From Chelativorans sp. Marseille-P2723 (GTDB taxonomy: Bacteria; Pseudomonadota; Alphaproteobacteria; Rhizobiales; Rhizobiaceae): a stretch of 64,000 nucleotides of DNA. Of this stretch, positions 17,731-36,098 are shown one piece after another (positions within the stretch are counted from its first letter, which is position 1; the number at the start of each line of letters is the position of its first letter). The stretch lies in assembly GCF_902809845.1 (NCBI RefSeq), contig NZ_CADDWI010000008.1:930001-994000 (forward strand), in the 5' to 3' direction. The position numbers and the translations under genes are program-made. The notes under the pieces were generated by a model. The model was not told the origin of the DNA. It saw only the letters and a program-made list of their open reading frames with translations, and did not search any database.

Positions 17731-19737
17731 TTACGCCGCCTTGCCTTTGCCATTCAGCGCGTCTTCCGCCAACCTCCCGGTTAGCTCAGACATGTGGGAG
17801 AAGGTTGAACGATAGCGCGCAGCGCCTGCCGTCGCCGAACGCAACTCGATGATGAGATTGCCCATTTCGGCGGTAGGCACCATCGCTTCCACCACATCCC
17901 ACCCGGGCCAGTCGACCCTTGTGTCAAAGCCAAGGATCTGTCCGCGCCTCTGCGAAAGGATGGCGGTTACACGCGCCGTTGCCTCGCTTGGCGTATCGAC
18001 CTCCACCTTCAGCACCGGCTCCAACAGTATGGGGCCTGCGGCGGCAAGTCCCTCCTTCATCGCAAGTCGCGCTGCAAGCTGGAAGGCCATGTCGGAGGAA
18101 TCGACCGTGTGATAGGAGCCGTCCGAAAGGTTGACTGCCAGGTCGACCACGGGGAAACCGAGCGGTCCCGACTTGAGCGCCTCTCGAACTCCTGCCTCCA
18201 CGGAAGGGATGTACTGGCGCGGCACCACGCCGCCGGTAATGGTTTCGGTGAACTCAAAGCCAGCGCCTCGGGGCAGGGGCCTGATCACCAGCACCACATC
18301 GCCGAACTGGCCATGTCCGCCCGATTGCTTCTTGTGGCGGCCGCGCTGGATGACGCTGCTTCTTATAGTCTCGCGATAGGGAATCGATGGTGCACGCGTT
18401 TCAACTGCGATCTGGTATCTTTCTTCAAGATGCTCGCGCGCTGTGCGCAGATGCATCTCGCCCTGACCGCTAAGAACAGTCTCGCTCGTTTCGGGGTTCT
18501 GCTCAAGAGTGAGCGACGGGTCTTCCTGCATGAGCTTTTGAAGGGCGGCCGACAGTTTCACTTCGTCCTTCCGGTCTCGCGGACTGATAGCCATGGCAAA
18601 AACCGGTTGCGGGATCGCCAGAGGCGCGAGCGGTCCTTGGGCGGACTTACCCGAGTAAAGCGTGTCGCCGGTATTTGCCACATCCAGTTTTCCCAGCGCT
18701 ACCGTCTCACCTTCGGCAGCGGATGGGATTTTCGTCTGCTCCCGGCCAAGGAGCCTGTAAATGCCCGATACGCGCCCGGCGCCGGGAAGCTCAGTCCCGT
18801 CGGGGATGCTGCCGGCAAGAACCCTTGCCACCGAAAGCTTGCCGCCATGGCCCGTATGAATGGTTTTCATCACTTGCAGTACCGCGCCGTCGGTTGCGCC
18901 AAGACCAAGGCGCTGTCGCGTGCGGGTAACATCATGTGCATCGTGACGGATGCTCTTCAGCAGGCGCAGCACGCCATGTCCCTTTTCCGCCGAGCCGATC
19001 AGAACCGGTGTGACAGCGCCTTCGCGTAAGTCTGCGGCAAGATCATCGAATACGGCGTCGCGCGGCGGTTCGATCTCCTCAAGAAGCTGTTCCATGAGCT
19101 GGTCGTCATGGTCGGCCAGGGTTTCCAGCATCGAAAAACGAGCTTCAAGTTCGCGCGCCTTTTCATCGTCTGGGATGGGAGCAATTTCACTGGGAGCGTG
19201 CTCCTGGTAAACGTAGGCGCGCTCCAGCGCCAGATCGATCGATCCCACGACAATGCCATTCCTCCGCAACGGGATCTGACGAAGGAGCAAAGTGCTGGTG
19301 CTTGCCGGCTGCAACGCCTTGAGCATCTCGCGAACGCTGGTGGCGCTCTTGTCGATCTTGTTCAGGAACAGGATGCGCGGCATGCGCAACTCTTCCAGCC
19401 GGTGCATCAAAAGCTGCAGCATCGGCAGCTTGTTGTCATCGGCGTCCACCACCACGATAGCTATGTCAGCAGCCGCAAGCACAGGTTCTGCTTCCAGCGC
19501 GAACTCGACGGAGCCTGGGCAATCGATGAAGGTCATGCTTTCGCCCATGAAGCTGACGGAGGCGAAACACGCTTCTACGCTCATGCCGTTCGACCGGGAC
19601 TCGATCGGGTGATTTGCCGCCTGTGCGCCGGTGCGAGTTAATATCGCATCCAGGAGTGTGGTCTTTCCGCTTGCGAGTGGGCCGATAATGGCGATGCATT
19701 TCGGCCCCGTCAGTCTTTCTCCGGCTCGATCTCCCAT
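17731..19737 (-). CDS. EF-G-like translational GTPase (divergent paralogue)
   Basis: A 668-residue protein with the five-domain layout of EF-G. The GTPase domain has P-loop IGPLASGKTTLLD (about 18-30), NKIDKS (G4) and IGSAEKGHGV (G5 region); later parts include QGEMHLRTAREHLEERY, GRHKKQSGGHGQFGDV and PVVDLAVNLSDGSYH of domains III-V. In motif G3 it reads DCPGS (residues 72-76) instead of DTPGH, so the catalytic His is Ser. That sets it apart from the housekeeping FusA; it belongs to the shorter EF-G-like group whose role is poorly known. It converges on abcR and stands apart from ribosomal operons. Confidence 0.85.
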   Translation of the reverse strand: MGDRAGERLTGPKCIAIIGPLASGKTTLLDAILTRTGAQAANHPIESRSNGMSVEACFASVSFMGESMTFIDCPGSVEFALEAEPVLAAADIAIVVVDADDNKLPMLQLLMHRLEELRMPRILFLNKIDKSATSVREMLKALQPASTSTLLLRQIPLRRNGIVVGSIDLALERAYVYQEHAPSEIAPIPDDEKARELEARFSMLETLADHDDQLMEQLLEEIEPPRDAVFDDLAADLREGAVTPVLIGSAEKGHGVLRLLKSIRHDAHDVTRTRQRLGLGATDGAVLQVMKTIHTGHGGKLSVARVLAGSIPDGTELPGAGRVSGIYRLLGREQTKIPSAAEGETVALGKLDVANTGDTLYSGKSAQGPLAPLAIPQPVFAMAISPRDRKDEVKLSAALQKLMQEDPSLTLEQNPETSETVLSGQGEMHLRTAREHLEERYQIAVETRAPSIPYRETIRSSVIQRGRHKKQSGGHGQFGDVVLVIRPLPRGAGFEFTETITGGVVPRQYIPSVEAGVREALKSGPLGFPVVDLAVNLSDGSYHTVDSSDMAFQLAARLAMKEGLAAAGPILLEPVLKVEVDTPSEATARVTAILSQRRGQILGFDTRVDWPGWDVVEAMVPTAEMGNLIIELRSATAGAARYRSTFSHMSELTGRLAEDALNGKGKAA

Positions 19738-20054
19738 GGTGCCGACCTCCTTTCACATGCCCCGTTGGGCGGCGGCCGGCCTAGATCTCTCCCCTTGTCA
19801 GGAGCCGATGATACAAAGCATCGACGAGCGTGCAGCGCCAGCGGCTGCCAAAGGCAGCCGGGGCCTTCGCCCTGCGCCCATACTCGGAAATGGATGATGC
19901 TCGTACAACGCCGGACCTGCTCCTATGCCGGGAAAACCTGCGGCGGCCATCACGCGTGCGAGTAACGTGTCCGGTACTCGCATTGAGCTATCGTCCCACG
20001 AGAGGGCGATAAGAGCAAGGCGGAAGAAGGACTGGTCGCGGAAAAGCCTACGTT
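19738..20054. other. Intergenic region, nothing recognised
   Basis: About 317 bases between the EF-G-like gene and aatA, both on the minus strand. It should contain the EF-G-like promoter; GGAGGT (as GAGG on the minus strand) precedes the start. Short open frames here have no recognisable motif. I see no RNA gene. Confidence 0.4.
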
Positions 20055-21586
<1,532 letters not shown>

Positions 21587-22501
21587 ATGGAACGCATCCT
21601 TCATCGGCGCGAGGACTGCCGGGTGATGTCGGATCAGCCGCTTTGGAAGCGAATAGATGACGCCCTTATGGTCGATGAAATAGGGATCGAAGCGGCCCGC
21701 TGCGGTCCCTACCTTCTGAAAACGGTCTACCAGCCGATCTTCCGCAACAGATCGGGGCAACTCGTTCCTTGGGGCGTGCGCGGAGACATCGTTCCCTACC
21801 GCAACGGCCGTCCCGCCTCGTGCAAGACGTTCGCCGCAGACATGCTACCCCGTCAGGCCGCTTTTGTGGAAGGAGTTTCCCGCATGCTGCAATTGCGCAA
21901 TTACCGCAATATCGGCATAGCCGGACTGGCGCTGCTTGCCAGCTTCGACCCGGCCGCGGCTAGCCGCGCCACGACGACTTCGCGTCAGGCAAGCAATCTT
22001 GCAGACCTCCTTGAGGAGATCGAACTGCCGCGTGAACTGCTGATATGCGAGATTGCGGAGAATGTGAAAATCGAATCTGTGCGGCCCCTTGCCGTTGCGC
22101 TCAGGCGACGGGGCATTCGCGTCGCCATAGGTCAGTTCGGTGTTGGCACGAGATTCCTTGAAAGGGCGCGCCTAGCCGACTCGGACCTCATCAGGCTCGA
22201 CAGCGGCTGGTTCCGCCGCATCGTCGAGGTCCCAGGGGCATCAGGGCTTCTTGCTTCGCTCCTGGCCGCGATCCATGCCGAGGGAAGAGAGGTTCTGGTA
22301 GACGGGCTGGAGACGGTGGATCAATTGCGGGTTGCGCTGGATGCTGGAGTCGATCTGTTGCAAGGCGATCTCCTGCGCCCGGCAAAACTTGCCGGGGCAA
22401 TCTTTGATACCTCTCCACTCAACAGGAAGGCGCTGCTCGCCCCGCGCTCGAAGATCCTGCGATTCACTGGGAGCCGTGGTCGAAAGGACGGCCGCCGCTG
22501 A
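21587..22501 (+). CDS. Degenerate EAL-domain protein (probably no phosphodiesterase activity)
   Basis: About 291-304 residues with the overall EAL-domain path: VYQPIFRNRSGQLV, LLICEIAENV, RVAIGQFGVGTRFL, SDLIRLDSGW, VLVDGLETVDQL and LLQGDLLRPA. Nearly every catalytic site of c-di-GMP phosphodiesterases has changed: the EAL triad is PWG, the DDFG loop is GQFG, and the loop-6 Lys is Arg. It therefore most likely acts as a c-di-GMP sensor or a protein-interaction module. Start is ATG 21587 or ATG 21626 (MSDQPLWKRIDD). No signal peptide or GGDEF domain is visible. Stand-alone gene. Confidence 0.75.
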   Translation: MERILHRREDCRVMSDQPLWKRIDDALMVDEIGIEAARCGPYLLKTVYQPIFRNRSGQLVPWGVRGDIVPYRNGRPASCKTFAADMLPRQAAFVEGVSRMLQLRNYRNIGIAGLALLASFDPAAASRATTTSRQASNLADLLEEIELPRELLICEIAENVKIESVRPLAVALRRRGIRVAIGQFGVGTRFLERARLADSDLIRLDSGWFRRIVEVPGASGLLASLLAAIHAEGREVLVDGLETVDQLRVALDAGVDLLQGDLLRPAKLAGAIFDTSPLNRKALLAPRSKILRFTGSRGRKDGRR

Positions 22502-22641
22502 CTGGCTTTTGCTTTGGCCGATCTTCCTGCCCGCGTGTCACCGTCTACGGCATAACAAGTCCCGGCGCCTGTCTGGCTCTATGACAGGAAGCACCACAGC
22601 ACCTGCATCCAGCCAGTAAAAGACAAAGCGGCGGAGCGGCC

Positions 22642-22875
22642 TTAAGCGACAGCCCTGTAGCCGCTCTGCGCGGGTTGCTCCGTGGCCTTCGAACTTTCTC
22701 TCATGGATTCGAGGACGGAATTAAGTTCGTCCATATCTACATAAAAAGCATGGGCAAGGCGGATGGGTATCAGCTCCTCCGGCACTCCCCGGGCCAGCAG
22801 CCTTTCTACAGCCAGCATGAGCTTCCTCCTGTCTGTCAGGCGCAGCTTGATATTATCTTCCCACGTATAACGCAT
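22642..22875 (-). CDS. Small conserved-looking protein of unknown function
   Basis: A 77-residue hydrophilic protein, MRYTWEDNIKLRLTDRRKLM at the N-terminus, then a helical middle (AVERLLARGVPEELIPIRLA) and HAFYVDMDELNSVLESM. The even charge pattern and codon usage look like a real gene, and I recall similar short proteins in Rhizobiales without an assigned role. No membrane segment or known motif. A GAGGACAAT stretch lies just upstream on the minus strand. Confidence 0.6.
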   Translation of the reverse strand: MRYTWEDNIKLRLTDRRKLMLAVERLLARGVPEELIPIRLAHAFYVDMDELNSVLESMRESSKATEQPAQSGYRAVA

Positions 22876-23440
22876 ATTGTCCTCGCCGGCGAATGAAGCG
22901 GGTTAGGCCGCACGCAGCCCGCCGAAACGCACATGAGATTGAACGCACAACTGGAAAAAAAACGAGCGATGACAAAGCGGCAAGTTACGAATCGTCCAAT
23001 TGCGCATCATGCGCAAGAAGCGCACCCGGACAACCAGTCAACAGTTGTGGATAAGGTTGCGCAAATTCTATAACAGGTTGTAATAGGCTTGAGCGAGCAC
23101 GCGCCGGATTCACCACGGTGAGGTCGCCTCCCAGCATATCTTGTTGTTAGCGCCGGGCGGCGCCGATACTCCCTCTCTACCGGGTATGCCGCGCCGGTTA
23201 AGCCTGGTCGTCGAATGCATTCTTCCACGGATCGGCACTCGCCATGGGCAGCAGGAAGCGGGTGGTGCAACCCCATTGATACCATCCAATGCCGCAGAAG
23301 CTGGATGGCGTGTCGAAGATGCGGCAATAGGACATGAAAAAGTCCCATAGGGTTTCTTTATTTTCACGCTAGAAGCATCCTTTGATGTAAATCATGGAAA
23401 TGTCTTGGCCTCCCCGGCAAAGCATTCTTGGGGGATTTTC
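22876..23440. other. Long intergenic region, no gene supported
   Basis: About 565 bases. It contains short inverted motifs such as TTGCGCATCATGCGCAA (23001-23017, palindromic arms TTGCGCA/TGCGCAA) and several short open frames without recognisable motifs. The 3' part must hold the promoter of the lytic transglycosylase gene; GGGGG lies just upstream of ATG 23441. Confidence 0.4.
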
Positions 23441-24130
23441 ATGCCGGATTTTGCGAATGTTCCTGCAGCCGGAACACGCCGCCTTGGCGCATGCAGCTTC
23501 GGGCTCTGTGCGCTCATAGCCCTTTTGCCGCTGACGGGCTGCACGAGCACGGGAGGGGTGGCGGAGGTGCTTTCTGACTCCACCATCGGCGAAGACAGGC
23601 AGACGGTGGCAGCCTCCGCCACCGGTGATGCTATTGTCGGACTGGCCGAGGAGCAGCACGCCGAAATTACCAATGTGAAGGCGGGAGTGCATGAAGCTTT
23701 CGCCGCAAGCCAGGCAAGGCCCGCCGCGCTCACCGCCTTCGAGCAGGAAGGAAAGTTGCGGCCTGTCACCGCCCGCAGCCCGGAACTTGACGCCCTCATT
23801 GCCAAATATGCGGCCCATTACAAACTGCCGGAAAGGCTCGTCCGGCGGGTGGTGAAGCGGGAAAGCAATTTCGATCCATCAGCGCGCAACCGGATCTATT
23901 GGGGCCTCATGCAGATTCGCCACGATACGGCACAGACCATGGGCTATCGCGGTCCGGCGCACGGGCTGCTCGATGCGGAAACCAACCTCAAATACGCCGT
24001 CAGATATCTCCGCGGGGCCTATATCACCGCCGACGGCGACGAGGACCGGGCGGTGCGCTTTTATGCCAGCGGCTATTACTACGATGCCAAGCGGAAAGGC
24101 CTTTTGAGGGAGACGGGCCTGAGGAACTAG
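23441..24130 (+). CDS. Lytic transglycosylase-like lipoprotein (SLT domain)
   Basis: A 229-residue lipoprotein: N-terminal basic stretch, hydrophobic core LCALIALLPLTGC with the lipobox LTGC (Cys about residue 33), a linker, then a C-terminal soluble lytic transglycosylase domain. The catalytic Glu lies in VVKRESNFDPSARN (about residue 143), followed by YWGLMQIRHDTAQTMGYRG and ETNLKYAVRYLRGAY. It cleaves peptidoglycan between MurNAc and GlcNAc from the outer-membrane side. ATG 23441 was chosen because it places the signal peptide at the N-terminus. A frequent cell-wall-remodelling gene in Rhizobiales. Confidence 0.85.
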   Translation: MPDFANVPAAGTRRLGACSFGLCALIALLPLTGCTSTGGVAEVLSDSTIGEDRQTVAASATGDAIVGLAEEQHAEITNVKAGVHEAFAASQARPAALTAFEQEGKLRPVTARSPELDALIAKYAAHYKLPERLVRRVVKRESNFDPSARNRIYWGLMQIRHDTAQTMGYRGPAHGLLDAETNLKYAVRYLRGAYITADGDEDRAVRFYASGYYYDAKRKGLLRETGLRN

Positions 24131-24269
24131 CCTCCCGGCGAGCACGCGCTGTTCCCCTGCCGCCTTGCTCATTGCAGCCTATGGCGCGGGCGTCGAGGGG
24201 CGGCTTTTCGGCAGATGGGGAGCGGCGCGGACCAGCGGACAGCCGTCATGCATCTCTTGCCCCGCTCCG

Positions 24270-24694
24270 TCATCGCGGGCCGGAATCCGGCGGGGCGCTC
24301 TCCGCCAGGAGCGGGCTCGCGAGAACCATGCCGGCCATTTTGCGCCGGCGCTGCGCCTCGAAGGCCCAGCCAACCGCAAGCCCCAGATACGCCGTTTCCA
24401 GCTTTTCGGCTTCGGCCCCGCTCCACAGGGCCGCGCAGGCTCCCGCATTCCGCCGCGCAAGCCCGCTCCGGCACTTGCCGGCCCGCCGGCCGGCCCGCCG
24501 GCAGGCGGCTGCGGGCAACGCGCCGGCAGGCCGGCTTCCTCCGCCAGGAAACGGTAGATGAAGTTCATCTCTGCCTGCGGCCATGAAGGCGGCTCGAGGA
24601 CGACGGCGATGCTGCGCAGGAGTTCCGGCAGGGCTTCGCGCGCCCCATTGAGGATGCCGGTCAGTTCGCATATCAGCTGTTCGTTCTCGTCCAT
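24270..24694 (-). pseudogene. Small helical protein of unknown function, frameshifted
   Basis: The 5' part (from ATG 24694) reads like a real protein: MDENEQLICELTGILNGARE, PELLRSIAVVLEPPSWPQAE, MNFIYRFLAEEAGLPARCP. The frame then turns into low-complexity Pro/Gly/Arg text. A neighbouring minus-strand frame (ending at 24270) instead gives protein-like EAEKLETAYLGLAVGWAFEA and QRRRKMAGMVLASPLLAESA. One indel in the very GC-rich tract around 24475-24515 would join them into about 140 residues. I do not recognise a family. GC-rich repeats make this a likely spot for a sequencing or replication slip. Confidence 0.5.
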
Positions 24695-25431
24695 TTATTG
24701 GGTGAACCTCTTCTGGTGCATGTTCGCGACGTGCTTCATCGCCGCCACGCCCGCACATCGCGTCTGGCTGTTGGAAGACCGGGAAGCGGGGCGCGTCATC
24801 CGTGCCTCTCTGTTTGGTTTGGTGGCGCGCACAACGCGCCCCGCCGGCCGCTGTCCCGACGTCGACCGGTCAAGGAAGGCTCCTCGTGCCCTTTCGGGCG
24901 CCCAGGCGGTCACGCAGAAACGCCTGAGCCGAACCCCCGCGGCTTCTCCGCACCCGGCGCTTCACACCCGTCTTTCCCTCGCCATTTGCGGCTTGGGGCC
25001 GATGGGGTCGGCGCAAGGCTCCGGCCTTTCGCGGGCCCTCACATGTCCCCGGGTACCGTTCCCCGGGGAGGGAGGCTGCCGCCGCTCTCCCTGATCCCCG
25101 GTCCGGACCCGGTTCCCGCAAGAGCGATGGGCGAAGCTTAGAGCAGGCAGAGAGGACGGGGATAAATAAGCGAACAGCGCATGGCGAATAGTGAGTAGGG
25201 GATTGTTTGTGCTGCTGAATATTTCCGGAAGGGTTCGAACTTGTCCCCGCTGCTTCTTCCATCGTGCCGTTGGCACGATGAACTCGCTTTGGGCGAACTG
25301 GCCGCTCACGCCGTAGCCAAGGGAGAGATAGCGCTGGGACCGCTTTGGCGACTAACAACTTTATGGTGAATATCAGCAAAGCCCACTTGCGGATCGCCAT
25401 TACCTTATGTTAGGCGGCAAATATGGTGTAC
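24695..25431. other. Non-coding or decayed stretch at the edge of the reverse-transcriptase island
   Basis: About 740 bases with no convincing gene. The first half is very GC-rich; from about 25140 it changes to mixed composition. Open frames overlap on both strands without family motifs. It contains a short perfect hairpin ATCGTGCCGTTGGCACGAT at 25260-25278. Confidence 0.4.
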
Positions 25432-25547
25432 GCTTCATGCCGAAGCCGCCTTCAGTACGGTTATGGGTCGCCAGCCAATCGATTTGCCGGAAAGACGGCA
25501 AAACGGGCGGGGAGACGATCCGGCAGGCGTCGTGATGACGCAATGTC
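25432..25547 (+). repeat. 116-bp direct repeat, copy 1 (hairpin-rich)
   Basis: Identical to copy 2 (25724-25839) except for G25455 versus C25747. Each copy can fold into three hairpins: GCTTC-ATGCC-GAAGC (25432-25446), TTTGCCG-GAAAGA-CGGCAAA (25483-25502) and GCGTC-GTGAT-GACGC (25527-25541). The hairpins suggest a structured RNA or a palindromic repeat element. It lies 325 bases before the reverse transcriptase ORF. Confidence 0.85.
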
Positions 25548-25723
25548 GCCATAGCTGCTCGAAGGAGGTGTCCATGCTCGAGGATTGTAAAATGGCACAA
25601 CGGGCGAGTGACACTATTGTCCGGCGGACTAGGCGATGGGGGCGCGTCGCCGCAATTTGTTCTCCTTTCCTTGAGTGAGGTGCGAAACCATGTTGGCGGT
25701 GCCGTAGTTGATGTGCGTCTTGA

Positions 25724-25839
25724 GCTTCATGCCGAAGCCGCCTTCACTACGGTTATGGGTCGCCAGCCAATCGATTTGCCGGAAAGACGGCAAAACGGGC
25801 GGGGAGACGATCCGGCAGGCGTCGTGATGACGCAATGTC
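25724..25839 (+). repeat. 116-bp direct repeat, copy 2
   Basis: Second copy, offset by exactly 292 bases from copy 1 and ending 32 bases before the reverse transcriptase frame opens. The 176 bases between the copies are not repeated elsewhere in the window. Near-identity (115/116) implies recent duplication or selection on the RNA. Confidence 0.85.
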
Positions 25840-25871
25840 ACGCTCTTGTCTAAGGCATAGGTTTTCTCACC

Positions 25872-26828
25872 TTGTGCTCCTATGCCGAAGGTAAGAATGA
25901 TCACCCAAGACCGACCAAAATACTTTCGAGAACGAGTTTATCTTGGGCTTGGCAGAATTCGCGCGACAGTACAAAGAATTCCGGGGCACGAGGAATTGAT
26001 GGGGTTTCGGCCAAAGCATTTGCGGCGAACTTAGACCACAATTTGCGGCTCCTTAGTCGCAGGATAGCTGATGGCGAATTCGGCTTTTCCAGACTTCGTC
26101 CGTTTCCGATTCCTAAAGAGGGCACTAACAAAGAGCGTCTGATTTGCATCCCAACGGTACAAGATCGCCTTGTCCAAAGATGCATGATGAGGCACCTTGA
26201 GCAAAGGCGCCTTTTTCCGATTTTAAACAACTCGTCCTTCGGCTTTGTTCAAGATAAGGGATTGCGCAAGGCCGTAAAGCGGACTCTTGAACTAAGGCAT
26301 TGTTATCCTTTTGTTTTTGAGACCGATATCGTAGGCTTCTTCGATACAATTCATCGCGATAAGCTCGTAGAGAAAGTCGAACGGGCGCTCAAACGGCATA
26401 GCCTGATCCCACTACTCAGGAGTGCAATTTGCACAGAAGTGAAGCCTGATGCCAATTGCGATGCCAAGAAGTTGGTTAGCTTAGGCATTCGCCAGGGCTG
26501 GGGGATACGGCAGGGAATGCCGCTGTCTCCGCTGCTATCTAACCTTGCCCTGAGCGAGTTTGATCTCGCTGTTGAACGAGCCGGGATCCCGATGGTTCGC
26601 TATGCAGATGACATCGTTCTATTCGCGTCGACCAAGAGCGAAGCTCTCGAACGAGGCGAATTCATAGCTGAGCAACTTAGAAGTATTGGCCATTCTATTC
26701 CCTCAATTGAGCAGAATGGGAAAACAAAGATAGCGTCTAAACTGCAGTCTTTTAGCTTTTTAGGTAGGGAGGTCTATTTTTCAAAGAGGGAGGGGAGATA
26801 TATACAAAGAATATCTGAAAAAAAATAG
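25872..26828 (+). CDS. Reverse transcriptase of an unknown-group (DRT-like) type, main ORF
   Basis: 318 codons with a full set of reverse-transcriptase motifs: ARGIDGVSAKAF (motif 0 region), RLICIPTVQDRLVQRCMM (motif 1), VFETDIVGFFDTIHRD (motif 3, catalytic Asp), GIRQGMPLSPLLSNLALSEFD (motif 4), VRYADDIVLFAS (motif 5, YADD) and KTKIASKLQSFSFLG (motifs 6-7). There is no maturase or endonuclease domain, so it is not a group II intron RT. QGMPLSP rules out the SQ-type of diversity-generating elements. The style resembles UG2/DRT2 defence RTs, by memory only. The only in-frame start is TTG 25872; ATG 25897 with a good AAGG site is one frame off. Confidence 0.8.
   Translation: MCSYAEGKNDHPRPTKILSRTSLSWAWQNSRDSTKNSGARGIDGVSAKAFAANLDHNLRLLSRRIADGEFGFSRLRPFPIPKEGTNKERLICIPTVQDRLVQRCMMRHLEQRRLFPILNNSSFGFVQDKGLRKAVKRTLELRHCYPFVFETDIVGFFDTIHRDKLVEKVERALKRHSLIPLLRSAICTEVKPDANCDAKKLVSLGIRQGWGIRQGMPLSPLLSNLALSEFDLAVERAGIPMVRYADDIVLFASTKSEALERGEFIAEQLRSIGHSIPSIEQNGKTKIASKLQSFSFLGREVYFSKREGRYIQRISEKK
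26818..26825 (+). other. A8 slippery tract joining the two RT reading frames
   Basis: Eight consecutive A at 26818-26825, with the RT frame ending at TAG 26826-26828 immediately afterwards. A -1 slip re-reads one A and continues into the next open frame (IESILYKMESMC...), giving about 421 residues in all. Programmed -1 frameshifting, polymerase slippage, a mutation or a sequencing error would all look like this. Confidence 0.6.
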
Positions 26829-26845
26829 AATCTATTTTATATAAG

Positions 26846-27136
26846 ATGGAATCCATGTGTAATTTCCATCATATGCTTAATAATGGCCATGGAATATCTG
26901 ATATGAGTAGGGTTATTTCTCAGATGATTGGATCTTACATAAAGTGCTACAGCGATACCTGGAATGCGTTACACTTCGAGTACGAGTTGCGTCGAAAAGG
27001 GAAAGAGATACTAAAAAATGCGTACACGACGATTTTTGGCGCGAAGAGTGTATCCATTGCTGCAGAGAAATATGGTGGATTTCTGGGTATTGACAAAATT
27101 GAGCCAATCTTCGACGAGATAGTCGAAATATACTAG
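26846..27136 (+). CDS. C-terminal (thumb-like) portion of the reverse transcriptase in the -1 frame
   Basis: 96 codons from ATG 26846; the open frame begins right after a stop at 26816-26818 and so overlaps the A8 tract. The product is helical and basic: SRVISQMIGSYIKCYSDTWN, then LHFEYELRRKGKEILKNAYT, then TIFGAKSVSIAAEKYGGFLG. Such a helical tail follows the palm in full-length bacterial RTs and forms the thumb. The most economical reading is one RT protein spanning both ORFs. A separate small protein is less likely because the palm ORF ends too early to be a complete RT. Composition is AT-rich like the main ORF. Confidence 0.6.
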   Translation: MESMCNFHHMLNNGHGISDMSRVISQMIGSYIKCYSDTWNALHFEYELRRKGKEILKNAYTTIFGAKSVSIAAEKYGGFLGIDKIEPIFDEIVEIY

Positions 27137-27270
27137 AAGCGCGGGCGTTCATTCGGGCGGACAAGGGACGCTCTTCTTGTTTTTCCGAATTTTGCGGTCG
27201 TCAGATGATTCCATCTTGCTGCAAATGCTACAACGTCCGCTGATAGTGGCTTGGCTCGAAACAGCTGCCT

Positions 27271-30765
<3,495 letters not shown>

Positions 30766-31035
30766 GAAAAATCCGTCCGTGGCTCCGGCGGTCGCACGCC
30801 GCCTGCCGGTGGCGGCGGAAGCTTCGCGCGGGATGGTATAACTTTGAGGCTAGGCGGGCCTTATAGGCAAGGATAGCCGGCGACGGAACCCCGAAAATGC
30901 GGGCAAGCCACAGATATGAAGCATGCAGGCTCGGACCTTTTGGCGCAGGCGCGTTCGCAATGGTCTCGCCCGCCGGCCAACCGACTGGAGGCACGGGGCC
31001 GGCGGGCGGGTTTCGAGCGGCAGCGCGCCCGATTT

Positions 31036-31854
31036 TCAATCCACCATAAAGTCGAACCGGTAGGTGGCGGACACGCCGACGGTGAACTGGTTGGCTGAGC
31101 CGCGGCGCTTGACAAGTGGGGAATTTGCCGCCGGTCCCACCAGACGTTCATATTCGCTGAAGACGCTGGTCGTGATCTTTTCAGTGGTCATCCAAGTAAT
31201 AGCGGCACCTGCTCCCACGGACTTGATGCCACCGCCCGGCTCGTATCGCGGCAGGCCAGAACGTGCGGATTCGGTGGCGCTTATGCCATAATAGGCGTCG
31301 AAGTAGTCAGCGTTCGCGAACGACAGGCGCGGGCCGCCCGAAATGCGTATGGTGGAGGAAAGGTCGTCGAAAACATCGAGCGCGACATCCGCCACAAGGC
31401 CATCATGCGAGCGGATGCCTCGGCGCACCTCTCCGCGAAGGCGGATGTTCTGGGAGGGATAAACCTCCGCGAATCCGCCAAGCTCTACGCCAAATCTTAT
31501 GGGATCGAGGCCCCTGAGAGCCTTGTCAGTGTCACCGTCGCGGCGGAAGACAAGCTTGCCCGCGGGGCCGGCGCGGAAGACACCCGTATCCACGAAGCCG
31601 AAGGACGGGCTGTCGTTGCGGGAAGAAAAAAGCGGTTCCGGTCCGTTGCGGCTTAGCGAAACCATGGGCGAGATCCTGAAGATCCAATCCTTCGAACCAT
31701 CGAATCGTGGAGCCACGAGGCCGGCTGCACCTACTGTCAGCGACCAGTGGCCCGACAGGAAATTATCGCTGTATCCTTCCTGGGCGACCGCGACTGAAGC
31801 GGTGCTGATACCCGCAAGGAGGAGAGCGCCCGCTGAAAGGGCGGAGAAGTGCAT
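31036..31854 (-). CDS. MipA/OmpV-family outer-membrane protein
   Basis: About 272 residues. The signal peptide is MHFSALSAGALLLAGISTAS followed by VAVAQEG. The mature part has the MipA/OmpV pattern: DNFLSGHWSLTVGAAGLVAP, PRFDGSKDWIFRISPMVSL, later PIRFGVELGGFAEVYPSQ and a last beta strand ending QFTVGVSATYRFDFMVD. The family forms small barrels and includes a scaffold for murein-synthesising complexes. ATG 31854 puts the signal peptide first; the longer open frame to 31986 adds non-signal residues. Single gene. Confidence 0.82.
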   Translation of the reverse strand: MHFSALSAGALLLAGISTASVAVAQEGYSDNFLSGHWSLTVGAAGLVAPRFDGSKDWIFRISPMVSLSRNGPEPLFSSRNDSPSFGFVDTGVFRAGPAGKLVFRRDGDTDKALRGLDPIRFGVELGGFAEVYPSQNIRLRGEVRRGIRSHDGLVADVALDVFDDLSSTIRISGGPRLSFANADYFDAYYGISATESARSGLPRYEPGGGIKSVGAGAAITWMTTEKITTSVFSEYERLVGPAANSPLVKRRGSANQFTVGVSATYRFDFMVD

Positions 31855-32059
31855 GGACAAGGAAGACTCCGATACGAACGCCTTGCGGCCCGAATATGCG
31901 GAAGGTCGATAAAAATTGATTAAATTCCGGCTATTGCGCGGCAGTTTCGCAGTGGTTCGACTATTATCAACAGCTCTGCGGCACATGACTTTGCAACCGG
32001 CTTCCTCTAACTTGCGTTAGCAAGAACGTATGCCGCCGGGCATGCGCGAGGGAGAAGCC

Positions 32060-32944
32060 ATGCGCTGGAGAGGCCGCCGTCAAAGCAGCAATGTAGAGGA
32101 TCGCCGCCGCATGCGGGCCAGCTTTCCGGGCGGAATGAGGCGGATACCTGTGCGCATTCCAATGCGGCGCGGCGGCGGCATGTCGATTTCGACCATCATC
32201 ATACTTGCCGTCCTGTTCATAGGCTTGCGGGCCATCGGCATCGATCCGCTGGAAATGCTTGCTCAAGGTCCGATAACCGAGCAGAGCGCACAGCAGGCCC
32301 CCGCCAATGACGAGACCTCGCAATTCGTGCGAGTGGTGCTCGCAGAGACAGAGGACGTATGGCGGCAACTCTTCAGGGCTGAGGGCGCGGAATATTCGGA
32401 ACCGACGCTCGTCCTCTTTTACAGCCAGGTGGAGTCCGCCTGCGGTTTTGCTTCGGCCGCCAGCGGGCCTTTTTATTGCCCGGGCGACAATCGGGTATAT
32501 CTCGATCTGGATTTTTTTAACGAGCTTGCGCGCCGATTCCAGGCGGCAGGCGACTTCGCGCAAGCCTATGTGATTGCGCATGAGGTGGGACATCATGTGC
32601 AGAACCTCATTGGGGTGCTGCCCCGTTTCAATCGCATGCGGGCAGGCATGAGCCAGGCTGAGGTGAATGCCGTATCTGTGCGGGTGGAGTTGCAGGCCGA
32701 TTGCTTTGCCGGGGTATGGGCGCACCATACTGATCAGCGAGGCTTGCTGGAGGAGGGCGACATCGACGAGGCGCTGAATGCGGCGTTCCAGATCGGAGAC
32801 GACACGCTGCAAAAGCGCACCCAAGGTTATGTCGTTCCCGAAAGCTTCAATCACGGCACTTCGCAGCAAAGACAAAGATGGTTCCTGCGTGGCTATCAAA
32901 CCGGTCAGGTATCCGGTTGCGACACTTTTGAAGGTGATGTCTGA
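32060..32944 (+). CDS. YpfJ-type putative neutral zinc metallopeptidase
   Basis: A 294-residue member of the PF04228 family. The N-terminus MRWRGRRQSSNVEDRRRM is a conserved family opening. A single membrane segment (STIIILAVLFIGLRAIGI, about 45-62) anchors it. The zinc site VIAHEVGHHVQNLIGVLPRF lies near residue 172, followed by VRVELQADCFAGVWAHH with the third acidic ligand and family-typical FNHGTSQQRQRWFLRGYQTG. Substrate is unknown for the family. Followed 24 bases later by a DUF2937 gene. Confidence 0.9.
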   Translation: MRWRGRRQSSNVEDRRRMRASFPGGMRRIPVRIPMRRGGGMSISTIIILAVLFIGLRAIGIDPLEMLAQGPITEQSAQQAPANDETSQFVRVVLAETEDVWRQLFRAEGAEYSEPTLVLFYSQVESACGFASAASGPFYCPGDNRVYLDLDFFNELARRFQAAGDFAQAYVIAHEVGHHVQNLIGVLPRFNRMRAGMSQAEVNAVSVRVELQADCFAGVWAHHTDQRGLLEEGDIDEALNAAFQIGDDTLQKRTQGYVVPESFNHGTSQQRQRWFLRGYQTGQVSGCDTFEGDV

Positions 32945-32967
32945 ACGATGCAGGCGGAAGCGTATAG

Positions 32968-33480
32968 ATGAGGGCCGGAACAATAGCCGCACTCGTCGTT
33001 TCCCTCATCGGCGGAGCCGTGGCATCCCAGGCGCCGGAGTTCGCACAGCAATACCGCCAGCGCCTTCACGGTGCCCACTGGGAACTTACCCAGATAGTGA
33101 CGGATTTTGATGCAGGCGCTGTGCGCCATGGCCTTGATCGGGAGGAGGCGCTGGGGCTTTATGACAAAGTTCCACCGCCTTTCCTCCAGGACCGCTCCCG
33201 TTCGATGCGCAGGATCATTGAGCGTGCCGAGCATCTTGACCGCCAGGTGCAGCGGCTTGCAGATCTGCCACCTGTCCTCCGGCCGCTCCTCGTGATGGTC
33301 GATCCCGATAAGGACGTTTTTCAGGGGACGCTGCACGATTTCGAGACTGCAGTACCGCTGACAGCTCACGGCCTTGTTTGGACGGCGGCGGGGCTTCTTG
33401 CAGGCTTCGGTCTGATCAGATTGGCTGTTTTCCCGCTGCGGCAGCGCCGCCGTCGGCCGGAAAGGTTCGCAAGCCGTTAA
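32968..33480 (+). CDS. DUF2937 family membrane protein
   Basis: A 170-residue protein with a hydrophobic N-terminus (TIAALVVSLIGGAVASQ), a central helical region starting PEFAQQYRQRLHGAHWELTQ, and a C-terminal membrane segment GLVWTAAGLLAGFGLIRLAV followed by a basic tail. This matches DUF2937, an uncharacterised proteobacterial inner-membrane family. It follows the metallopeptidase closely and may share its transcript. No function can be given. Confidence 0.8.
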   Translation: MRAGTIAALVVSLIGGAVASQAPEFAQQYRQRLHGAHWELTQIVTDFDAGAVRHGLDREEALGLYDKVPPPFLQDRSRSMRRIIERAEHLDRQVQRLADLPPVLRPLLVMVDPDKDVFQGTLHDFETAVPLTAHGLVWTAAGLLAGFGLIRLAVFPLRQRRRRPERFASR

Positions 33481-33732
33481 TGGGTTGCCTAAATTGGCGA
33501 CAGCAACCTTAAAAGGAGTTTAAAAGCGGCTGTGCTAAAAAGCATCCCGACAATGAAGATGCGGGGGCGCTACACTTCTTCGAATTTCCGAGCATCCGTA
33601 TTTTATGCAGGGCAAAAAAGCTCTGATTCGCAAGACCGCCTGGCATACTGCCGCGGCTTGAGAATGGAATGCGCCGTGCTCGTTAAAGGAGTTACCAGAC
33701 TGTGCCTTCATCTTGACGCACGGTAACAACTG
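33481..33732. other. Intergenic region ending in an orphan terminator
   Basis: About 250 bases without a gene. A plus-strand terminator follows at 33733, so either the DUF2937 transcript has a long 3' end or a small RNA starts within this region. Confidence 0.35.
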
Positions 33733-33763
33733 GGGCGGCTCTGACAAGGAGCTGCCCTTTTTT
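33733..33763 (+). terminator. Intrinsic terminator, plus strand
   Basis: Stem GGGCGGCTC (33733-33741) with GAGCTGCCC (33749-33757), 7-base loop, one G-T pair, then six T. It lies between DUF2937 and the converging carA. Confidence 0.8.
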
Positions 33764-33773
33764 CTTTCCAGTA

Positions 33774-34973
33774 TCAGCGTTCGGCGAGCGCCGGCTCGCC
33801 CTTCCTCTCGCGGATGAAATTGATGAACCGGCGGAAGAGATAATGTGAATCCTGCGGCCCGGGCGAGGCTTCAGGGTGGTGCTGGACCGAGAAGACGGGT
33901 CGCCCAACAAGGCTGATTCCGCAATTGGAACCGTCGAAGAGCGAGACATGAGTTTCCTCGACGCCTTCCGGCAGGCTGTCGCGGTCGACTGAGAAACTGT
34001 GGTTCATTGATACGATCTCCACCTTTCCGGTGGTGAAGTCTTTGACCGGATGGTTCGCGCCGTGGTGACCCTGATGCATCTTGACGGTTTTGGCGCCGAG
34101 CGCCAGCGCCAGAAGCTGGTGTCCGAGACAGATGCCAAAAAGCGGCATGCCAGTCTCCAGAAGTTTGCGTATCATGGGTGCGGCGTATTCGCCGGTTGCC
34201 GCCGGATCGCCAGGGCCGTTGGACAGGAACACACCGTCAGGCTTCATGGCAAGGATGTCGTCAGCGGTCCAAGTCGCCGGCACGACGGTTACTTTGGCGC
34301 CAAGGCTTGAAAGAAGGCGCAGGATGTTGCGCTTCACGCCGTAGTCAACGGCGACCACGTGGATGGGGGGCTTGGTGGCGGTTCCGTAGCCCTCGTTCCA
34401 GATCCACGGCGTTTCTGTCCATGTGGAGGATTGACCCGAGGTCACCTCCTTCGCCAGGTCGAGCCCCAGAAGACCGCTCCATTCGCGGGCCTGACGTTTC
34501 AGGTCCTCAATATCGAAGCGGCCGTCGGGAGCATGAGCAATCGCGGCATTGAGCGCACCCTTGCCCCTCAAGAGGGCCGTGAGCGCGCGGGTGTCTATGC
34601 CAGACAGCGCGATGATGCCGCGCCGGCTCAGCCAGGCGTTCAGATGCTCGGTAGAACGGTAATTGGAAGGCTCGGTAATGTCGGCGCGGAAGATTGCGCC
34701 AACGGCGCCTGCGCGGGCGGCGGGGTGGAGGTCCTCGAAATCTTCCCCGTTGACACCGGTATTGCCGATATGCGGAAAGGTGAAGGTGACGATCTGTCCG
34801 GCAAAGGATGGGTCCGACAGAATTTCCTGATAGCCGGTGAGCGCCGTGTTGAAGCACACCTCGCCGACGGCTGTACCGGCTGCGCCGAAGCCGCGGCCCT
34901 CGATCACCGTGCCGTCGGCAAGAACGAGAAGCGCCGTCGGCCTGGCTTCATTCCAGGGCGCGGTAGTTGCCAT
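33774..34973 (-). CDS. carA: Carbamoyl-phosphate synthase, small (glutamine amidotransferase) subunit
   Basis: A 399-residue subunit that hydrolyses glutamine and passes ammonia to CarB. N-terminal domain: [20 protein letters not shown] and [21 protein letters not shown]-terminal class-I amidotransferase: nucleophile Cys in [20 protein letters not shown] (about residue 275), [13 protein letters not shown], and the His-Glu pair in [17 protein letters not shown] (about 363). ATG 34973 sits 6 bases after GGAG and matches the family start; the frame is open for 300 bases upstream but not conserved. Minus strand, ending opposite the plus-strand terminator. Confidence 0.97.
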
Positions 34974-35254
34974 AAGAAACTCCATCTTAACGCATCGAGG
35001 CCTTGAAAGATAACGCACGCCGCGCCATATCGCCGCGCAATATGCGGAGTAAAACAGATCCGCATTTTCGCTGCCAGGCACACACCATGTCCGTGCAAGG
35101 CGCGGACAATAAAGGACACCCAATAAGCGGTCAATTCTTCTTCCAGAATTTTGGTGGGTATGTTCGCTTCTCGATTTCGAGGGCATAGGCAAAAGAATCA
35201 GTCTCGCCCGTGCGAGAGGCGTCCTTTTAGTGCCGTTACGGGAGTAATAAGACC

Positions 35255-35704
35255 ATGCGCGAGAAAATCGCTCGGGCATTGAGTGAAGCTTTGAAAATCC
35301 AGGATAGACGCCGAATCTCGACGCTACGCCTCATCCAAATGGCCATCAAGGATCGCGATGCCGCAAATCGCATGGCGGGAAAAGATCCGTTGAGCGATGA
35401 GGAGATCGCGAAAGTCTTAACGCGCATGGTCAAGCAGCGCGAGGATTCGGCGCGCGCCTTCGAGGAAGCCAGCCGGCTGGAGCTTGCGGAGCAGGAGCGC
35501 CGGGAAATCGAGATCATCCTGGAATGTCTGCCAAGGCAGCTCGGCGAGGAGGACATGAAGAAGATCTGCGCTCAGGTGGTAAATGAAGTGGGGGCTGGCG
35601 GATTGCGTGATATGCGCCGTTGCATGAATGCTCTCAAGGAAAAGTTTCCCCTCCAGGTCGACCTGGGCAAAGCCAGTAGCATCATGAGGGAAATGCTGCG
35701 ATAA
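35255..35704 (+). CDS. GatB/YqeY domain protein
   Basis: A 149-residue YqeY-like protein. It opens [20 protein letters not shown] and continues with [17 protein letters not shown], the helical bundle that in GatB contacts tRNA. Later segments [20 protein letters not shown] and [20 protein letters not shown] are typical. The family may help tRNA-dependent amidotransfer or tRNA binding, but its role is not settled. It is commonly found before dnaG-rpoD in alphaproteobacteria, as here. Confidence 0.88.
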
Positions 35705-35762
35705 CGGGAGCGCGCTCGAGGATCGAGCGCGAAACCGATCATGAATGGCAGGAGTACAGGCA

Positions 35763-35987
35763 ATGAAGTCCGGCCCTGTAGCCTTCATCCTCTGGCTGTG
35801 CTGTTTCCTCGGCTTCTGCGGATTGCACCGCTTCTATCTTGGAAGGCCCTGGACTGGGCTTTTATGGCTCTTGACCTTGGGGCTTCTCGGTGTCGGCCAA
35901 CTCATCGATCTGTTCCTTCTTCCTTCCATGATCCGCCAGGCCAATCTTGAGTTGCGTGTTGACAGGATCGAGGGCAATCCGTCCTGA
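35763..35987 (+). CDS. TM2-domain membrane protein
   Basis: A 74-residue protein with two hydrophobic segments (VAFILWLCCFLGFCGLHRFY and LGRPWTGLLWLLTLGLLGVG) joined by the GLHRFYLGR turn characteristic of TM2 domains. It ends DLFLLPSMIRQANLELRV. ATG 35763 has an AGGAG site eight bases upstream. Unknown function; small inner-membrane protein between yqeY and dnaG. Confidence 0.8.
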   Translation: MKSGPVAFILWLCCFLGFCGLHRFYLGRPWTGLLWLLTLGLLGVGQLIDLFLLPSMIRQANLELRVDRIEGNPS

Positions 35988-36098
35988 TCGCTTTCCCGGT
36001 ATTGCCTGCAAACGACGTGTCCTGCCTGTGAATCTCTGGCGCCGGAGGGGACAGGGCGCGCCGTCGTGTGTAATCCTGTGTTCCGAAAGAGCTTGGCC

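Follow-up and report, generated by a model that had tools for sequence, protein, structure and literature searches.

Long paired direct repeats forming an endless reading frame accompany a clade of bacterial reverse transcriptases

In the 64,000-nt stretch of the Chelativorans sp. Marseille-P2723 genome analysed here (contig NZ_CADDWI010000008.1, positions 930,001 to 994,000; hereafter the window), a reverse transcriptase (RT) gene is preceded by two near-identical direct repeats, A1 and A2, which bracket a spacer, B. The RT falls into a clade of its own, apparently an unnamed RT system, and the repeat pair belongs to this clade; across the relatives, the A1+B unit is kept as an endless reading frame, i.e. 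a sense frame that is stop-free right round the circle of the unit. Judging from these sequence features, we regard it as probable that the loci are standalone defence RT systems, in which an A1-B-A2 RNA would be copied into concatemers encoding an endless membrane protein that stops infected cells. The features of the window locus are the following:

25432..25547, + strand: A1, the upstream copy of a 116-nt direct repeat (from repeat comparison)
25548..25723, + strand: B, the spacer between the copies (the A1+B unit is 292 nt here)
25562..25576, + strand: AAGGAGG ribosome-binding site and ATG (25574-25576) inside B; the frame from this ATG stops at 25678
25608..25853, + strand: B frame entering A2 (LLSGG...FVLLSLSEV...HAEAAF...; from translation)
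25724..25839, + strand: A2, the downstream repeat copy, with one mismatch to A1
25854..25886, + strand: hairpin GGCATAGG/CCTATGCC behind A2, with compensatory changes in relatives; contains ATG 25882
25872..26828, + strand: reverse transcriptase, fingers and palm (YADD), by Pfam RVT_1; the relatives' homology begins at about 25905
26828..27136, + strand: C-terminal part of the RT in a different frame, ending ...GFLGI..., by homology to relatives

Phylogenetic analysis placed the window RT in its own well-supported clade (42 of the 68 tree rows; support 100/99), which the tree separates from group-II-like rows, the latter being identified through the generic RT model and by position in the tree, not by an intron test. 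The open reading frame (ORF) 25872-26828 matches Pfam RVT_1 at 92.9 bits (cut-off 29.6; residues 80-299), the palm motifs RQGMPLSP and RYADD are readable, and the G+C fraction is 0.40-0.55 in segments across 25500-27249 compared with 0.55-0.70 across the rest of 18000-36000 (edge segments excepted); the first-pass annotation, made from the sequence alone, had described just such an RT, with complete palm motifs, in an AT-richer island. Its assignment of the RT to a UG/DRT-style class did not hold, as the protein scores in no named class and the best PADLOC model is that of a generic RT (184 bits), which leaves no UG/DRT class assignable by profile. We rejected (i) a UG17/DRT10 RT, for which the window protein scores 133 bits compared with 484 for a genuine UG17 RT (L007) and the clades are separate (relatives L125, L149 and L025 score 138, 156 and 123 bits with the same model), (ii) a Drt2 RT (NCBIfam NF041746; 39.9 bits against a cut-off of 390), (iii) a group II maturase RT (TIGR04416), given 166 bits against a cut-off of 300 and no Rfam intron RNA match at 24700-27400, where Rfam gave no match at all up to E 1, (iv) a retron RT (NCBIfam St85 model; 74 bits against 235), judged by score alone as no tree row was identified as a retron, and (v) a CRISPR-associated RT, since the match to the Cas1_IIIb model is confined to its RT part (14-274 of 617), the window pair is a single A1-B-A2 with no array, and the clade lies apart from the RT-Cas1 rows. 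With the PADLOC Drt9 model, which comes without a cut-off, the window RT scores 68 bits compared with 184 for the generic RT. The annotation's view of a defence-type RT is retained, and its statement that no maturase is present agrees with the scores; a place among group II introns or retrons, which it had named as refuting, is opposed by the scores and, for the group-II-like rows, by the tree.

The two window copies form a single direct-repeat family (2 x 116 nt, 25432-25547 and 25724-25839; spacing 292) of 99.1% identity, as the annotation had read them. No second match to the region 25400-25900 was found elsewhere in the genome; the unit is not a generic repeat element there, a possibility that the annotation had raised. 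Among the clade rows, a direct-repeat pair stands upstream of the RT in 33 of the 39 that are testable; in the remaining three of the 42 (L122, L003 and L140) the sequence available before the RT is shorter than 170 nt. The clade count excludes two loci that have no repeat, L158, truncated, with a score of 175 bits and transposase-like sequence upstream, and L160, which scores 113 bits and lies at a contig end. The pair is also present in L152, in L163 (a cut-off contig) and on plasmid L023, all outside the clade rows, L163 and L023 not being in the tree. Control RT loci, not all independent, carry an upstream direct repeat in 7 of 55 cases (for three control RTs the upstream sequence was too short); five of these seven have a period of 66-71 nt and are CRISPR-array-like, and two, L094 and L106, whose RTs stand next to UG17 in the tree, show an A1-B-A2 arrangement, their pairs measuring 128 and about 136 nt and preceding RTs of another clade. 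From the end of A2 to the start of RT homology there are 37-84 nt (n = 32).

Within a locus the copies are 94-100% alike (36 loci), whereas between six loci of the Beta group A is 60-83% identical (differing by 17-40%), and a conserved sequence family is ruled out, as the A copies of distant lineages do not align. Since they are alike within a locus yet different between lineages, the two copies of a locus appear to evolve together. In Acinetobacter, L164, a close relative of the single-copy loci L161 and L165, has two copies; at the variable site the single copy of L165 carries the A2-type bases and that of L161 the A1-type, which fits recombination between copies. As to distribution, the 15 other genomes of the genus searched contain no close RT (matches are weak, the best of them, at E 1.1e-18, being a UG17 RT), a draw of 398 genomes of the phylum held no clade member besides the window's own genome at E 1e-55, and on viral contigs a first scan gave 56 loci at 24-26% identity and scans with the L136 and L149 RTs no relative. 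Two host labels are doubtful: L156, on a contig that bears the name Candidatus Heimdallarchaeota, has almost the same RT as Acinetobacter higginsii L157, and its bin is probably contaminated; L123 (contig labelled Frankia sp. RB7) has sequence in common with G399, a genome placed in the genus of the Bradyrhizobium loci, and is probably mislabelled.

For the reading frame, 36 loci were counted, after L085 (the same as L123), L120 (the same as L133), L135 (with the RT score and repeat positions of L134) and L173 (RT 69 bits, repeats 73-79% alike) had been dropped; the first copy of L142 is cut by a contig end. The start-to-start distance between A1 and A2 is a multiple of three in 32 of the 36 (binomial, 6.7e-12; 16/20 and 2.5e-5 with each distinct length taken once), and every one of these 32 units has a sense frame that is stop-free right round the circle. 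In 26 representatives of the open units (all except L126, L127, L138, L143, L156 and L023), the two other frames contain 303 stops against 0 in the open frame, and dinucleotide shuffles of equal length gave p 0.001-0.42 per locus (Fisher, 2.7e-15). The exceptions are the window unit (292 nt, against 291 in the Bradyrhizobium relatives L124 and L126), L123 (302, against 303 in L125, L127, L128 and the later-found L189), L144 (395, against 396 in L143) and L087 (382). A later search returned nine matches in the genus Bradyrhizobium, which held three new loci, L189, L191 and L192; the units of L189 (303) and L192 (273) are open. Among relatives with an intact locus, the period is 402 nt in Collimonas L149 and Nitrosovibrio L139 and 303 nt in Bradyrhizobium L125.

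An in-frame ATG with a ribosome-binding site lies in B in 22 of 32 units and in A in none (0/32). Upstream of A1 the frame is mostly closed (median, 11 open codons), with no in-frame start codon in 22/32 and no ATG in 29/32, and downstream of A2 it stops after a median of 18 nt. Because the starts lie mostly in B and the frame is mostly closed upstream, the chromosomal message would give mainly a B-through-A2 product. In that message A1 would be an untranslated leader, so that nothing would keep its frame into B from drifting; mostly, it has not drifted. These counts also bear on whether A1-B-A2 is an ordinary chromosomal gene with an internal duplication, starting in or before A1, with the RT as an unrelated neighbour. 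A unit divisible by three would be expected there as well, some in-frame start does lie upstream of A1 in 10/32, and GTG or TTG with a ribosome-binding-like site occurs within A in 4/32 (L130, L162, L022 and L023); such a gene is nevertheless very unlikely, considering the loci that lack an upstream start, the absence from A of any ATG with a ribosome-binding site, a nucleotide identity between copies that is unexpected for an old protein duplication, and the fact that the pair follows the RT clade.

The strongest hydrophobic stretch falls in B in all 26 representatives and reaches at least 1.6 in 22 of them (Kyte-Doolittle, 19 residues); shuffles of residue order gave a Fisher value of 8e-19 overall, with p over 0.09 in L124, L130, L137 and L162. 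On this basis a membrane protein would be expected as product, each unit contributing one helix. Judged by codon position, this product is under almost no purifying selection. Four loci (L132, L134, L137 and L139) have the start with the best ribosome-binding site downstream of the hydrophobic segment of B; were this start used, translation would reach the segment only when coming from the previous unit. Other in-frame ATGs, lacking such a site, precede the segment in L132, L134 and L139.

A second alternative is a layout like that of DRT10, with two copies of a scaffold non-coding RNA (ncRNA) flanking a small membrane-protein gene (from the ATG in B into A2) that is expressed from the chromosome, the RT making short repeats or another product from the ncRNA and no unit concatemer being formed. 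DRT10 itself comprises an ncRNA, a SLATT protein and an RT (PMC12632851), some members of the present family lack the pair, the A regions fold into hairpins, and L094 and L106 carry A1-B-A2 but no endless frame. However, this layout does not predict a stop-free in-frame passage from A1 into B, found in 32/36 loci, it sits poorly with the four loci whose best-site start lies behind the hydrophobic segment, and neither score nor tree makes the RT a UG17 member; we therefore judge it rather unlikely.

Several observations weigh against concatemer formation, aside from the four loci with GTG or TTG starts in A: (i) six testable clade rows have no pair, either no repeat (L024, L145, L148 and L150) or a single copy (L161 and L165); (ii) L094 and L106, with RTs beside UG17, have A1-B-A2 without the endless frame, and for that reason the repeats may also serve another role; (iii) single GC-rich loci are weak when taken alone (shuffle p up to 0.42), and the loci are related, which overstates the p values; (iv) counted by B+A2, the open units are 28/36 rather than 32/36, as there is an in-frame stop in the A2 of L131, L132 and L163 and an indel in that of L134, A1 being open at these loci; (v) L191 shows the reverse, its unit being 281 nt by A1 (with 8 extra nt in A1) and 273 nt and open by A2; (vi) in L087 the frame is lost between A1 and the ATG; (vii) L130 has a weak hydrophobic stretch (0.99), and that of L162 lacks significance; (viii) the chromosomal sequence suffices to encode a product of one unit, from the ATG in B through A2; and (ix) the amino-acid sequence of the product is weakly constrained, substitutions being spread nearly evenly over codon positions.

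At the RNA level, both window copies contain the stems TTTGCCG/CGGCAAA and GCGTC/GACGC, and the A regions fold into hairpins. The hairpin behind A2 covaries, reading GGCATAGG/CCTATGCC in the window, GACATAGG/CCTATGTC in L122, and CAAGCTTAGG/CCTAAGCTTG and CAGGCTTAGG/CCTAAGCCTG in Bradyrhizobium; in the Beta group a hairpin stands at the same place. The annotation had seen here a duplicated structured RNA region, of which the doubling of a structured unit stands; it is not merely a duplicated ncRNA, as the copies bracket a spacer and A1-B forms the endless frame. Taken together, the annotation's reading is partly supported. Rfam at gathering thresholds gave three matches on eight relatives, none in an A region; a C4 antisense RNA (L136, 3963-4050) and a SAM-alpha riboswitch (L147, 265-343) lie near RT loci.

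At several loci A1 and A2 differ by a block of two to three neighbouring substitutions at one site, the A2 version being often A-rich; this block may mark the start or the jump of copying, and no single site fits all loci. A stop or indel in A2 where A1 is open (L131, L132, L163 and L134) hints at which copy enters the product. These A2 lesions are consistent with copying that begins inside A2 and draws the 3' part of A from A1; L191 does not fit. A system like a diversity-generating retroelement (DGR), in which the RT would rewrite the copy at the small gene's 3' end with its partner as template, is hardly credible. The copies are almost identical, their differences are not confined to adenines (the sole window mismatch, at repeat position 24, is G>C, and changes elsewhere are mixed), and the window RT has QGMPLSP at the place where DGR RTs have an SQ motif and a low sequence score (49 bits) to the DGR RT chain 8ub7.

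The window copy shows three frame departures within 1.7 kb, all unremarked in the first-pass annotation and two of them concerning the RT. ATG 25882, which corresponds to the place where the L122 RT begins, is out of the RT frame; the unit is 292 nt, and the B frame at 25608-25853 is separate from that of the ATG in B, the two being a single frame in most relatives; and a stop (26826-26828) directly behind an A8 run (26818-26825) divides the two RT parts, which in most relatives form a single frame of about 400 residues, often with its end close to FLG. In L126 (Bradyrhizobium mercantei) the RT frame also ends early (354 aa), with an open unit (291). Because the window has 37 other ORFs of at least 180 residues, a general assembly error is unlikely, and the window copy has probably decayed, as a toxic system may. 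We lean towards the view that it is a non-functional remnant at which nothing works any more, consistent with the clustering of the departures among otherwise standing ORFs and with the lack of a close RT in the 15 other genus genomes searched; on the other side, the repeats are 99% identical and the hairpin is intact, and slippage at A8 or a local assembly error is possible instead. Such a remnant has no bearing against the family-level reading.

An anti-phage role is suggested by the neighbours of the relatives, and it is from these that we infer it. A bSEFIR gene adjoins L134 and DSR2 adjoins L155; SIR2 lies near L145, PDC-S06 near L146 and a type IIG/ISP restriction enzyme near L156; resolvases or an integrase lie near L137, L156 and L147; and an AbiEi-like gene stands directly behind the RT on Acinetobacter plasmids (L022, 6210-6926; L023, 6210-6938). 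PADLOC at 1e-15 matched 6 of 10 chosen neighbours and left 4 without a match (two scans were made of ten chosen neighbours each, five being in both, so that the counts are not a rate), and one match (L124) is a UvrA-type protein, probably housekeeping. No gene is common to most neighbourhoods, the largest cluster of the 603 neighbouring ORFs covering 6 of 42 loci, and no search aimed at SLATT was made. In the window, two neighbours are SLT and EAL proteins; all 15 other genus genomes searched match the carB side from about 27271 onward, and the intergenic 24728-25131, just left of the RT island, matches numerous scattered sites in other genomes of this genus (among the matches listed) and is a multi-copy element. 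A sigma-70 promoter scan upstream of A1 gave weak, scattered signals, on which we place no weight.

In the mechanism that we propose, a transcript running from A1 through B and A2 to the 3' hairpin would serve as template and scaffold. The RT would start within A2 and proceed through B to A1, in the direction of the template's 5' end; the complementary DNA (cDNA) so made, being complementary to A1, could re-anneal on the near-identical A2, where copying would resume, yielding unit concatemers. A second strand would then be made and transcribed, and translation from the start codon in B, with no stop in frame, would give a repeat protein without end, each unit adding one membrane helix; upon phage infection, this protein would arrest or kill the cell. 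In its fullest form, this would be a long-terminal-repeat-like bacterial reverse transcription, in which an RT of its own family jumps repeatedly between direct repeats of about 100 nt on one RNA, writing a multi-pass membrane-protein gene that is absent from the chromosome, one helix per round, to stop phage-infected cells; this tentative version commands a little under half of our confidence. Were it true, Neo-type gene writing would be found in two RT families or more, each with its own template design; DRT2 would then not be alone in assembling genes by reverse transcription, and the second gene-writing family would have a fold nearer to that of group II and G2L4 RTs. The design rule is readable from DNA (two long direct repeats around a spacer, with the unit a multiple of three and free of stops), and would amount to a search rule for hidden genes that are invisible to annotation; the product would be predictable as a membrane repeat protein, and the mechanism testable in several cultured bacteria.

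Compared with known systems, the loci may be read as DRT2-like and DRT10-like at once, with long repeats. In the literature covered (preprints and outside subscription papers apart), no RT system combining an endless frame with long direct repeats on either side was found, and none is listed in the available part of a 2026 overview of DRT1-9 (PMC13213688). DRT2 makes concatemeric cDNA with units divisible by three and an in-unit start codon, encoding a toxic endless protein, neo (PMC11100668, PMC12039810). The annotation's comparison with DRT2 was apt in its logic, though the RT is of another family (39.9 bits against the Drt2 cut-off of 390). Both have an RT with an adjacent RNA template, a start and ribosome-binding site within the unit and no effector gene visible beside the RT, and the stop-free multiple-of-three unit of DRT2 is found in the present family (32/36 by A1+B), not in the window (292). 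The weakly held amino-acid sequence of the product also resembles Neo, in which most of the conserved residues were ascribed to conservation at the nucleotide level (PMC12039810). In contrast to DRT2, the unit is 273-423 nt rather than 111-129 nt, the repeats measure about 63-150 nt rather than being a 3-nt ACA pair, and each unit has one hydrophobic, helix-like segment. A promoter formed only at the repeat junction is a mark of DRT2; B-A and A-B junctions are here already present in the chromosome.

With DRT10/UG17 the loci would share the A-B-A' logic, in which cDNA re-anneals on a repeated template segment, along with a related RT and an ncRNA upstream; in Eco3DRT10, the repeated segment is 4 nt, the product is a 9-nt repeat and the SLATT protein is required (PMC12632851). 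The present RTs differ from these in the UG17 score (133 for the window RT against 484) and in their long repeats. They differ from G2L4, group II intron RTs and RT-Cas1 in forming a separate clade and, for group II, in a score of the window RT of 166 bits, below the cut-off of 300. Retroviral R-region strand transfer likewise relies on direct repeats at both RNA ends, and here too such repeats would let nascent cDNA jump; unlike the retroviral case, the transfer would be iterated on one template, with no integration implied.
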